Part shown: piece by piece, positions 5,529 to 64,000 of the stretch
How positions within the stretch are numbered: position 1 is the stretch's first letter
How the letters are laid out: each line of letters opens with the position of its first letter
Assembly: GCA_900637705.1 (NCBI GenBank)
Contig: LR134390.1
Span: forward strand, 2,852,001 to 2,916,000
Origin: Fusobacterium varium
GTDB taxonomy: Bacteria > Fusobacteriota > Fusobacteriia > Fusobacteriales > Fusobacteriaceae
DNA length: 64,000 nt
Direction of reading: 5' to 3'
Position numbers and translations under genes: made by a program
Notes under the pieces: generated by a model
The model's database searches: none
Told to the model about the DNA's origin: nothing
Seen by the model: only the letters and a program-made list of their open reading frames with translations

Positions 5529-6749
5529 CTATTTTAAAACTACTTTATGATATTTTTTCTTTCCTATTTTTACAAGAAATTCTCCATTAGCGAAAAGATC
5601 TTTTGTTATAGGCATAGTAAAATCCGTTACTTTACTATCTCCTATATTTAATCCATTTTGTTGAACTAATCTTCTACCTTCACTTTTAGTTTTTAATATT
5701 CCTTTTTCTACTAGAAAATCTATAAGTCCAATTCCTAAAACTGCTTCTTCTATTTCTACTGAAGGAACACTGCTCATATCCTGTCCTCCACCGAATAAAG
5801 CCTCTGCAGCTGTTTTAGCTTTAAGAGCTTCTTCTTCTCCATGAATCATCTTTGTAATTTCAAAAGCAAGTATTTTTTTAGCCTCATTTATTTCTGCACC
5901 TTCTAATGCACTTAATCTTTTTACTTCATCCATTGGAATGAATGTTAATAATGAAAGACATTTTTCTACATCTGCATCATCAACATTTCTCCAGTATTGG
6001 TAAAATTCATAAGGAGATGTTTTTTCTGGATCTAGCCACAAAGCTCCTTTTGCAGTTTTCCCCATCTTCTTTCCTTCACTATTAGTAAGAAGAGTACAAG
6101 TCATTGCAAAAGCTTGTTTTTGCTCTTTTTTTCTAATAAGTTCTACTCCTGCAATCATGTTAGACCATTGGTCATCTCCACCAAGTTGCATAGTACAACC
6201 ATGTTTTTGATTTAATACAAGAAAGTCATATCCTTGCATCAACATATAGTTAAATTCAAGGAAAGAAAGTCCAACTTCCATTCTAGATTTAAAACATTCA
6301 GCTGCAAGCATTCTATTTACAGAAAAATGTGCTCCTATATCTCTTATAAAATCTATATAATTAAGTCCTAATAGCCAATCTGCATTATTTTCAAGTATAG
6401 CTTTACCATCTGAAAAATCTATAAACTTTTCCATTTGTTTTTTTATAGCTGCTACATTGTGAGCAATAGTTTCTTTGGACATCATAGTTCTCATGTCAGT
6501 TCTTCCACTTGGATCCCCTATCATAGCTGTTCCACCACCAAGTAGAGCTATTGGTCTATGACCATGTTTTTGCATATGAGACATAAACATCATAGCAATA
6601 AAATGTCCTACATGCAGACTATCTGCTGTTGGGTCAAAACCTATATAAAAAGTAACTTTCTCTTTTCCTAATATTTCTCTCATCTCTTCTTCATGAGTGA
6701 ATTGTTTTAAGTATCCACGTCCTACTAATACATCAAATACGTTTTCCAT
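5529..6749 (-). CDS. tyrS: Tyrosyl-tRNA synthetase
   Basis: A 406-residue class I synthetase that charges tRNA-Tyr. The HIGH motif reads HVGH (46-49) and the KMSKS loop reads KMGKT (228-232), the glycine-for-serine variant common in TyrS. Tyrosine-pocket signatures QGYDF and GGDDQWSN are present. A C-terminal S4-like RNA-binding domain runs from about 340 ([18 protein letters not shown]). The start has a strong GGGAGG a few bases upstream. The acetyltransferase-nth frame begins within a few bases of the tyrS stop, so they are probably co-transcribed. Upstream lies a full attenuator: promoter, leader peptide with three consecutive Tyr codons, and terminator, implying induction when charged tRNA-Tyr is scarce. 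Confidence 0.97.
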
Positions 6750-61350: not shown

Positions 61351-61379
61351 TTGACAATATCCCTTTCAAGTTATATAAT
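61351..61379 (+). promoter_or_regulatory. Consensus promoter of the 61.4-kb leader
   Basis: TTGACA (61351-61356), 17-nt spacer, TATAAT (61374-61379): a perfect consensus. The transcript would start near 61386, 30 nt before a short ORF and about 260 nt before the solute-binding protein. Confidence 0.85.
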
Positions 61380-61415
61380 CACCTCAATAAAATAAATTAA
61401 CACAAGGAGAAAAAA

Positions 61416-61490
61416 ATGTTATTTAAGAATCTAAGGAGTATGCCACAATTAAATATTTGCAACATATTCCTGTACAAAAGGATTCTTTAA
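61416..61490 (+). CDS. Probable leader peptide upstream of a solute-binding protein
   Basis: A 24-codon ORF with AAGGAG 6 nt before its ATG. It starts MLFKNLRSMPQLNIC and ends NIFLYKRIL. A perfect promoter lies just upstream and an intrinsic terminator 85 nt downstream, before the gene for an amino-acid-type binding protein. Five leucines are spread through it, but there is no run of one residue, so the sensed amino acid is unclear. The last codons fall in a foldable region: ATGCCA and ATTAAA (61439-61452) can pair with TTTAAT and TGGCAT (61487-61499). Confidence 0.55.
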   Translation: MLFKNLRSMPQLNICNIFLYKRIL

Positions 61491-61574
61491 TATGGCATTA
61501 TTCATGATATAATATATATTTACAAAGATGGGATAAATTTCCCTGAGTATAATATTTCTATGAATGCGTTTGTT

Positions 61575-61615
61575 AAAGTACTGATTCTTTTTAGGAATCA
61601 GTACTTTTTTTAATT
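61575..61615 (+). terminator. Leader terminator upstream of the solute-binding protein
   Basis: A perfect 13-bp stem (61575-61587 with 61595-61607, 7-nt loop) followed by TTTTAATTTT. It lies between the consensus promoter and the gene at 61648, so expression of that gene requires read-through or antitermination. Confidence 0.85.
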
Positions 61616-61647: not shown

Positions 61648-62388
61648 ATGAAAAAACTTTTTAAACTATTTATGTTAACTGTACTATTAGTACTAGCTGC
61701 TGCTTGTGGAACTTCTAAAACAGAACAAGCAAAAGACAATAAAGTCTATGTAATAGGAACAAATGCTGAATATCCACCTTTTGAATATCTGGAAAATGAC
61801 CAAGTATGTGGTTTAGATGCTGATATTATCTCTGCAATAGCTCAAAAATTAAATATACAATATAAATGGTCTAATACAAATTTTGATGGTCTTATTCCTG
61901 CTCTTCAGACGAAGAAAATGGACGTTGTGATAGCTGGAATGAGTATTACTCCTGAAAGAGCTAAAGCTGTTAATTTTTCTATACCTTATCTTTCATCTAA
62001 TGTAGCTTTTATAGCAAATAAAAATAAACCTATCAACGGTATAGAAGATTTAGAAAATAAAAATTTTGGTGCTGAACTTGGAACTACAAAGGAAGCTGCT
62101 GCAAGAAAAATAAAAGGTGCAACTGTAACTCCTTTCTCTTCTAACACTGGAGCTCTTGTTGCTTTAAAAAGCAGTAAAATAGATGCTATTGTCCTTGACG
62201 AAAGTGTGGCTGTAAAATTTGTAGAAAATAACCCTGAACTTATGCTTGTAGGAACTCTTGAAGGAGAGCCTAAAGCCATTGCTTTCAATAAAGATGATAC
62301 AGAACTTATGGAGAAATTCAATAAAGCTCTTCAAGAACTTATTGATGATGGTACTATTCAAAAATTAAGAGAAAAATATGGTGTATAA
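61648..62388 (+). CDS. Amino-acid ABC transporter solute-binding lipoprotein
   Basis: A 246-residue lipoprotein with signal MKKLFKLFMLTVLLVLAAAC. The family 3 binding-protein fold is clear from VIGTNAEYPPFEYLENDQVCGLDADIISAIAQKL, MDVVIAGMSITPERAKAVNFSIPY and FGAELGTTKEAAARKI. The start at 61648 has GGAGGG upstream; the open frame begins five codons earlier at 61633. No permease or ATPase gene follows; instead an alcohol dehydrogenase and an aminotransferase do. It may pair with a transporter encoded elsewhere or serve a sensory role. The leader upstream suggests control by amino-acid supply. Confidence 0.9.
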   Translation: MKKLFKLFMLTVLLVLAAACGTSKTEQAKDNKVYVIGTNAEYPPFEYLENDQVCGLDADIISAIAQKLNIQYKWSNTNFDGLIPALQTKKMDVVIAGMSITPERAKAVNFSIPYLSSNVAFIANKNKPINGIEDLENKNFGAELGTTKEAAARKIKGATVTPFSSNTGALVALKSSKIDAIVLDESVAVKFVENNPELMLVGTLEGEPKAIAFNKDDTELMEKFNKALQELIDDGTIQKLREKYGV

Positions 62389-62400
62389 TGGAGGCTGTTT

Positions 62401-63460
62401 ATGTTTGAAAATTTTTCATTCACTTCTTATTTCATAGATAAAAATATATGGAAATACTTAAAAAATGAAATTCTTCTATATAATAATATCCTCATTATAA
62501 CTGGAGAAAATTCTTTTAATAGTATAAGGGAAAAACTTTTTCCCTTACTTGAGGAAAAAAATATTCGATTGAAAAATATCATGGGGAATGTTCTTATGAA
62601 CATGTTGATGATATATTGAAAAATACACTGAATAAAAAATTTGATCTTGTTCTTGGAATAGGTGGAGGAAAAGCTATTGACACAGCAAAGATAACAGCTT
62701 TTAAATTAGGGATAGATATATTTTCTATCCCTACTATTGCTTCTACCTGTTCAGCAACATCTGCCTTATCTGTTGTGTATAACAACGATGGAAGCTTTAA
62801 GGAATTTTTTGATTTTCCTTCTCCTCCTAAAAAAACCTTTATAGATTTAGAAACTATAAAATCTGCTCCAGAAAAATATATATGGGCTGGTATGGGAGAT
62901 ACACTTGCCAAATTTTATGAAGTAAGAATGAAATATGAATATGTTTCCAGCAAAAATAATGGAAAGATGACCTATCCAAATTCCTTAGGAAAGGAAATAA
63001 GCCATCTCTGCAAAACTGTTATACTTGAAAATGGTGTTTCTGCTTACTTTGCTGAAGATATCAATGAGGAATTTAAAAAAGTTGTCCTTGCTATAATAGT
63101 AAATACTGGAATGGTTTCTAATTTAGTAGAAGAATTTCTCAATGGAGCTATTGCTCATTCTGTTTTTTATGGTCTGACTCTGCTTCCTTCGCTGGAAAAA
63201 GAACATCTTCATGGAGAAGTAGTTGCATTTGGTATACTTGTTCAGCTCCTTCTTGAAGGGAAAAAAGAGGAATACAAACAACTTCTTCCTTTCTACAAAA
63301 AACTTTCTTTTCCAGCAAAATTATCAGAAGTAGTAAAAAAGATGAATTTGAAAAATTGGAAGATAAAGTTCTCTGGGCCATTTTAGCAGGGCCTGACATA
63401 ATAGATATGGAATTTAATATAAATAAAGAAAATTTAAAAGAAACACTTTTTTCATTGTAG
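62401..63460 (+). CDS. Iron-containing alcohol dehydrogenase / glycerol dehydrogenase family, frame broken twice
   Basis: About 353 residues when read across two breaks. The nucleotide-binding half includes LIITGENSFNSIREKL and GIGGGKAIDTAKITAFKLG, the family 2 (glycerol dehydrogenase) motif. STCSATSALSVVYNNDG follows and the metal-ligand region has AIAHSVFYGLT and HGEVVAFGILVQLLLEG. Breaks: the A5 at 62572-62576 (one added A gives KKYHGECSYEHVDDILKN) and the A6 at 63335-63340 (one added A gives KKDEFEKLEDKVLWAILAGPD and a stop at 63460). Members oxidise glycerol or reduce hydroxyketones. It starts 13 nt after the binding-protein gene and is probably co-transcribed. Confidence 0.82.
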
Positions 63461-63469
63461 GGGGTAAAA

Positions 63470-64000
63470 ATGAAAAGCTTTATTGCAGATAAATTTAAAG
63501 AAAGAAATTATTCCATGGGAAACAAAAAAGGATCTGAAACTTGTTCTCTTTCTCTTATTAATCTGGGAATAGGAGATTTAGATATACATACTGATGAACA
63601 TCTTATTGAACTGGCTATGATTGATGCTAAGAATGGGCATACTCATTATACTGATTCTTATGGATATCTTGAATTAAGAAAAGAAATATGTAAATATCAC
63701 AAAGAAAACTTTCAAAATTATGAATTTTCTCCTAAAGATGTTATGATAACTACTGGAGCTTGTCATGCTCTTTATCTTGTATTTAAAAGTATTTTGAATA
63801 AGGGAGAAGAAGCAATTCTTCTTGCACCATTTTTTCCAGTATATGCTGATCAGATAAAATTATCTGATGGAGTTCCTGTAACTGTAGAAACAAAAATTGA
63901 AAATAACTTTCAAATAATAAAAGAAGATTTAGAAAAGGCAATAACTCCAAAGACAAAATGTATAGTTGTAAATTCTCCATCTAATCCTACTGGTGTCTGC
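63470..64000 (+). CDS. Class I/II aminotransferase, 3' end cut by window
   Basis: 177 codons are visible from the ATG at 63470, which has GGGG 5 nt upstream and lies 10 nt after the dehydrogenase stop. The fold-type I N-terminal half is intact: INLGIGDLDIHTDEHLIE, THYTDSYGYLELRKEI, VMITTGACHALYLVFKSIL, LLAPFFPVYADQI and VVNSPSNPTGV, typical of aspartate/LL-diaminopimelate-like aminotransferases. The PLP lysine lies beyond the window. Substrate cannot be told. It is the third gene of a unit with the binding protein and dehydrogenase. Confidence 0.85.
   Translation, partial: MKSFIADKFKERNYSMGNKKGSETCSLSLINLGIGDLDIHTDEHLIELAMIDAKNGHTHYTDSYGYLELRKEICKYHKENFQNYEFSPKDVMITTGACHALYLVFKSILNKGEEAILLAPFFPVYADQIKLSDGVPVTVETKIENNFQIIKEDLEKAITPKTKCIVVNSPSNPTGVC

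Follow-up and report, generated by a model that had tools for sequence, protein, structure and literature searches.

The leader in front of the binding-protein gene at 61648 of the analysed DNA stretch (the window; 64,000 nucleotides, 2852001-2916000 of a 3.30-Mb genome) was predicted to be an arginine-specific, ribosome-mediated transcription attenuator of the trp/his kind, a reading to which we give a probability of about 0.76. For the leader family to which it belongs, taken as a whole, arginine attenuation is highly probable. The computational basis comprises the anatomy of the leader, its conservation, its kinship with leaders of argC and argG, the enrichment of Arg and of its codon AGG, no detectable ArgR, and the folding of the leader family in three ribosome states; translation of the leader ORF, stalling of the ribosome and the direction of the response are predicted. 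It is likely, as well, that a bacterial family without detectable ArgR controls both arginine uptake and arginine synthesis through a dispersed regulon of leader-peptide attenuators, with the rare AGG codon as sensor and with tandem copies before argC, a specificity apparently undescribed for this mechanism.

Anatomy and conservation of the leader module

The preliminary description had placed a promoter, AAGGAG, a 24-codon ORF, foldable repeats and a 13-bp terminator before the gene at 61648. Each of these is present in the sequence, and the predicted leader module is thus confirmed. The module and the genes behind it are as follows:

61351..61379, + strand, sigma-70 type promoter TTGACA-17-TATAAT (12/12 match; hexamers identical in three other species)
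61404..61409, + strand, Shine-Dalgarno sequence AAGGAG of the leader ORF, kept in relatives
61416..61490, + strand, predicted leader peptide ORF MLFKNLRSMPQLNICNIFLYKRIL (indel-free in three species; homologous leaders elsewhere)
61434..61436, + strand, Arg codon 7 (AGG), predicted control codon by sequence comparison, fitting the Leu-Arg(AGG) of the leader family
61575..61611, + strand, predicted intrinsic terminator (stem 61575-61587/61595-61607, followed by a U run)
61648..62388, + strand, regulated gene, by homology an amino-acid ABC transporter substrate-binding lipoprotein, SBP_bac_3 (family 3)
62401..63460, + strand, second gene of the probable operon, by homology a glycerol-dehydrogenase-like protein with a broken frame in the assembly
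63470..64000, + strand, third gene of the probable operon, by homology a PLP aminotransferase that continues beyond the window end

Of the 24 promoter-like sites in 3.7 kb, this promoter ranks first and is the only one with a 12/12 match; by the looser rule, 20.5 such sites would be expected by chance. The leader ORF starts with the ATG at 61416, holds 24 codons and ends with the TAA at 61488-61490. The leader RNA was predicted to fold at -58.4 kcal/mol, against -40.5 +/- 4.0 for shuffled sequences (z -4.5; 0/200 shuffles as good). The intrinsic terminator, which has a 13-bp stem closing a loop of 7 bases (in the fold, 15 pairs around a loop of 3) and a U run on its 3' side, sits between the leader ORF and the first gene, as it does in the other leaders of the family.

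Three sister species have a leader at the corresponding place that is 87-90% identical over its whole length, with promoter hexamers, Shine-Dalgarno sequence, ORF and terminator all retained. The preliminary description had proposed an alignment of the leader across relatives, and there the frame is kept with no indel and a single amino-acid position changed: among the four close species, codon 15 varies (Cys/Ser/Phe/Phe) and codons 19 and 20 carry silent changes. The spacer 3' of the stop codon, by comparison, has indels and many changes in the same three sister species. Judged from these alignments, conservation of the leader across species is more than chance. In two further species, whose ortholog of the regulated gene is 71% identical, a diverged leader MFMMVLRNIKKLNNFSSIFLSINLSI shares the Leu-Arg(AGG) and is followed by a terminator of its own. 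A search of the phage collection gave no match.

The binding protein encoded behind the leader has its best matches among Gln/Arg and Lys/Arg/Orn binding proteins, below the curated cut-offs, and a scan of the genome contigs with the binding protein returned two distant matches only. An arginine-uptake role of the target transporters is suggested by homology. The dehydrogenase-like gene at 62401-63460 is split over three frames, with single-base length differences near 62553 and 63335; it is a single open frame in one relative (G010), and the break may be an assembly error or a recent pseudogene.

A leader-peptide family rich in arginine codons

Weak DNA matches at two loci (L016 and L017) led to a leader family, and more members were found upstream of binding-protein genes identified by protein homology alone; L010 and L011, two other weak matches that cover parts of the leader, look like chance on reading. 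According to pattern and model searches, the 61 genomes of the bacterial family hold at least 33 leaders that are non-redundant over their first seven residues, and every one of them is followed by a terminator and a gene. The pattern search gave 35 among the matches listed, clearly more than the reversed control, and overlapping or plainly chance ones were dropped on reading. Because MAFFT aligned the diverged leaders poorly, the model R1 is a sequence-only one and is biased to the genus; outside the bacterial family it gave one marginal match, which, with such a model, does not prove absence.

The genes behind the leaders encode binding proteins, permease-ATPase-binding-protein operons, M20 amidohydrolases, a binding protein together with an alanine-racemase-like enzyme, argG, and argC operons. 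The own genome holds a paralogous leader MLFNKLRIRNRKNNKNIEYLVFFVC (L056), followed by a terminator and an M20 amidohydrolase/binding-protein operon, whose counterpart in another genome (G008) reads MLFNKLRIRNRKSNKNIEYLISFVC. At least four leader modules of the arginine kind were found in the own genome, which bears out the earlier expectation that such modules recur there. Several minor features were seen across the leaders. The operon with the alanine-racemase-like enzyme (L096, 421-2218) is leader-controlled and might have a link to D-amino acids; an (A/G)CATTATG-like motif recurs about 30 nt 3' of the hairpin in L056, L053, L040 and others; and CATTNAA is present in many terminator loops.

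Arg accounts for 21.5% of codons 2-13 in the 33 non-redundant leaders and for 2.0% in genes, a 10.8-fold enrichment. AGG makes up 82/104 of the Arg codons in leaders and 10/180 in genes, where the scan required one AGG per leader and, after removal of those 33, AGG is still 49/71. Leu was rejected as the sensed amino acid, being only 2-fold enriched against the 10.8-fold of Arg. One leader, MLKLRRRRIRRSRTKNNNSYLIQLA, which lies before an amino-acid permease, contains a run of Arg.

The preliminary description had suggested sensing through a ribosome pause at the C-terminal FLYKRIL, or else through a small molecule or protein. A nascent-peptide arrest of this type, responsive to a ligand or protein, fits the C-terminal residues being unchanged in the four close species, and we regard it as very improbable, since the C-terminal parts of the peptides differ completely between members of the leader family and what the members share is Arg codons, not a C-terminal motif. 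The feature conserved instead, also in peptides before arginine genes, is the N-terminal Leu-Arg with AGG, and the proposal of small-molecule or protein sensing is likewise not borne out. It is just as implausible that a structured RNA element, such as a riboswitch or a protein-binding site, acts through an AAGGA...UUCCU hairpin with the ORF being incidental. AAGGA and its complement do recur, and the leader does fold better than shuffles; however, every member retains a Shine-Dalgarno sequence, an ATG and a short frame without interruption, whereas the RNA past the hairpin diverges, the Arg enrichment is a coding property, and no Rfam family matches. An Rfam search of the window and 12 sister loci found no known RNA at the leaders.

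The kinship with arginine biosynthesis genes argues for arginine as the signal. In one genome (G033), the leader MLLRNFRIMTKHNKTIILNVRLTS precedes argC-argJ-argB-argD-argF, and in the own genome MLKALKLRNRKY... is the leader that stands before a binding protein and then argG. The prediction was tested on all 13 argC genes of the bacterial family above the curated cut-off, and 10/13 have a short upstream ORF led by a Shine-Dalgarno sequence and containing two or more Arg. Under a stricter rule, which demands at least three Arg in codons 2-13 together with a terminator, 7/13 argC genes have a leader, against 0/13 Asd-type controls; a further two argC leaders qualify through the Leu-Arg(AGG) form with a terminator, giving 9 of the 10. 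At the three argC loci lacking such a leader, argG lies directly before argC. The model R1 had matched one argC leader (G040) at E 7.4e-4 before the argC search. Leaders of argC, some of them in tandem, include MLIRRSRMRRRIKTNKSYHFKMA and MRRYRRIRSKYNIQY; MFRISRTRRQIKNQYKSF; and MLRKRFRRSNLKSSIFL. At three loci upstream of argC (L185, L186 and L187), two Arg-rich leader ORFs stand in tandem about 260-280 nt apart. Upstream of a divergent argC-like gene in a further genus (L194 and L196), the ORFs MQSMARQRIRTYF... and MQSKARQRIRTYF... resemble arginine leaders.

The ArgR repressor and T-box RNAs are the usual control of arginine genes in other bacteria. ArgR (PF01316) scored above the cut-off in 0/61 genomes of the bacterial family, and the same search scored it in 8/14 control genomes; a covariance-model search of the own genome found no T-box match.

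Alternative folds and the predicted switch

For each leader, the sequence through the whole terminator 5' arm was folded after removal of the nucleotides that a ribosome would cover, and the sequestration of the arm by upstream sequence was measured. The family mean is 0.31 for the empty leader, 0.53 when a ribosome stands on the last N-terminal AGG and 0.33 when it stands on the stop codon, against 0.40, 0.40 and 0.35 for shuffled leaders in the same states. The difference between stall and empty is 0.224, compared with 0.00 +/- 0.033 in 20 shuffled families (largest 0.05), and counted leader by leader the signs are 27 to 2 for stall versus empty and 23 to 2 for stall versus stop. Two members (L174 and L180) have folds without the pattern of a stall freeing the antiterminator. 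The empty leader pairs less despite having more free sequence, the opposite of the default, which points to a protector hairpin. Both for the family average and for the window copy (0.38 empty, 0.55 at the AGG stall, 0.19 at stop), mutually exclusive protector, antiterminator and terminator structures were predicted, with the stop codon at segment 2. The predicted segments of the window copy are:

61425..61442 (61425-61432, 61434-61442), + strand, segment 1, 5' side of the protector, from the empty-leader fold
61463..61487 (61463-61471, 61480-61487), + strand, segment 2, 3' side of the protector, from the empty-leader fold
61477..61498, + strand, 5' strand of the antiterminator, pairing with 61564-61567, 61571-61578 and 61583-61590 in the fold with the ribosome at Arg7
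61564..61590, + strand, segment 3, 3' strand of the antiterminator, overlapping the terminator 5' arm, from the fold

Segment 2 shares 61477-61487, the stretch reaching the stop codon, with the antiterminator. In the empty leader, 61425-61432 pairs with 61480-61487 and 61434-61442 with 61463-61471, and the terminator is formed; in addition, 61415-61422 pairs with 61492-61499 and is predicted to cover the leader's own start codon, which would add a layer of control at translation initiation. With the ribosome at Arg7, the pairings become 61477-61484/61583-61590, 61485-61492/61571-61578 and 61495-61498/61564-61567. With the ribosome at stop, only a spacer hairpin and the terminator remain. The stem at 61485-61492 is retained in three relatives, where a change of UGUU to UAUU turns a U-G pair into U-A.

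Transcription would begin at the consensus promoter, and a ribosome would start on the 24-codon ORF. With ample charged Arg-tRNA for AGG, the ribosome would reach the stop codon at 61488 and cover segment 2, by which the antiterminator (61477-61498 with 61564-61590) would be blocked, the terminator at 61575-61607 would fold, and transcription would end before the binding-protein gene. When arginine is short, the ribosome would wait at Arg codon 7 (61434-61436) and cover segment 1, which would free segment 2 for the antiterminator and allow the transporter operon to be made. With no ribosome, the 1:2 protector hairpin would tend to hold segment 2, and termination would be the default. If the fold includes the complete terminator, this structure prevails at equilibrium although a ribosome is placed at Arg7, and the switch must therefore be kinetic: the antiterminator would have to form before the terminator, as is the rule in attenuators.

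A stall at any position between the start and roughly nine codons past the AGG leaves the antiterminator available, and a later one loses it; the folding test therefore does not single out the Arg codon as the stall site. The RNA would thus read an early delay of the ribosome, and Arg is what stands out among the early codons of the family. A stall at codons 19-24 of the window copy drops arm sequestration to 0.06-0.22 and masks the antiterminator, which also speaks against a pause in FLYKRIL.

The window copy is the leanest member of the leader family, with one N-terminal Arg codon (7) and another at codon 22, too late to help. Being among those with the fewest Arg codons, it makes its own arginine response, suggested by kinship and fold, the least certain step. 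Among leaders of the window type, the stall value is clearly above the empty one in 4/6 species only. We consider it improbable, although clearly less so than an arrest peptide or an RNA element, that the family senses arginine while the window copy has drifted into a weak or general attenuator of translation rate, or into a sensor of another scarce aminoacyl-tRNA. Drift is consistent with the single N-terminal Arg of the window type in six species, compared with two to six in most other leaders, and with the CTA Leu codon that precedes AGG in four of these six; yet AGG and its position are kept in all six although the remaining peptide has diverged (MFMMVLRNIKKLNN...), and promoter, ORF and terminator are still intact. 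As the AGG takes part in the pairing of the protector hairpin too, its conservation could be partly structural. Arginine attenuation remains the preferred reading for the window copy.

Relation to known attenuators

According to a survey from 2013, the ribosome-mediated attenuators in Rfam were only those for His, Leu, Thr and Trp, and those for Ile/Val and Phe are also known (PMC3766115). Like the trp, his, leu, thr, ilv and phe leaders, the present ones have a short ORF with codons for the sensed amino acid, three alternative structures, a stop codon at segment 2 and target operons for the same amino acid. Unlike them, they would sense arginine, occur in this bacterial family, use few and scattered codons that are mostly the rare AGG, and have mostly uptake genes as targets. 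The targets do include biosynthesis genes (argCJBDF and argG), the uptake genes being assigned by homology.

In Salmonella, ribosomes slow at Arg codons of the upstream ORF orf34 of speF under low arginine, and the mRNA structure switches (PMC6386406). An upstream ORF with Arg codons and a proposed structure switch are common to both systems; however, orf34/speF acts on Rho termination, on decay by RNase G and on the translation of an ornithine decarboxylase, carries a pair of adjacent Arg codons within a conserved peptide, and has no intrinsic-terminator switch described (PMC6386406). By eye, orf34 and the peptides of the window family have no similarity. The His leader peptides of bacilli (hisS/hisZ), found from premature terminators (PMC2965389), are likewise leader-peptide attenuators outside proteobacteria but have His codons and other targets, and the main text of that study makes no mention of fusobacteria. 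For carA of P. aeruginosa, a leader peptide and pyrimidine attenuation have been mentioned (PMC4997734).

Neither Rfam nor the literature yielded a bacterial arginine attenuator of the present type, and no paper on arginine leader peptides from these bacteria was found, in a search that covered few subscription journals, where an older report is possible. If the proposed mechanism is true, arginine would become one of the few amino acids known to be sensed through ribosome-mediated transcription attenuation, the control of arginine genes in bacteria without ArgR would be explained, and a regulon for testing would be named, comprising uptake genes, the M20 amidohydrolase, argG and argCJBDF. Short AGG-rich ORFs ahead of a terminator would serve as a search rule for more cases.

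The preliminary description had also likened the module to a tyrS leader, and this likeness holds, with such a leader and its terminator present in the same window:

6963-6910, - strand, tyrS leader MFNKNNVFITSSYYYCN with a Tyr run, a Tyr-run attenuator with a terminator before the gene at 6749

The two modules are alike in leader ORF and terminator, and the control codons of the tyrS leader would be Tyr.
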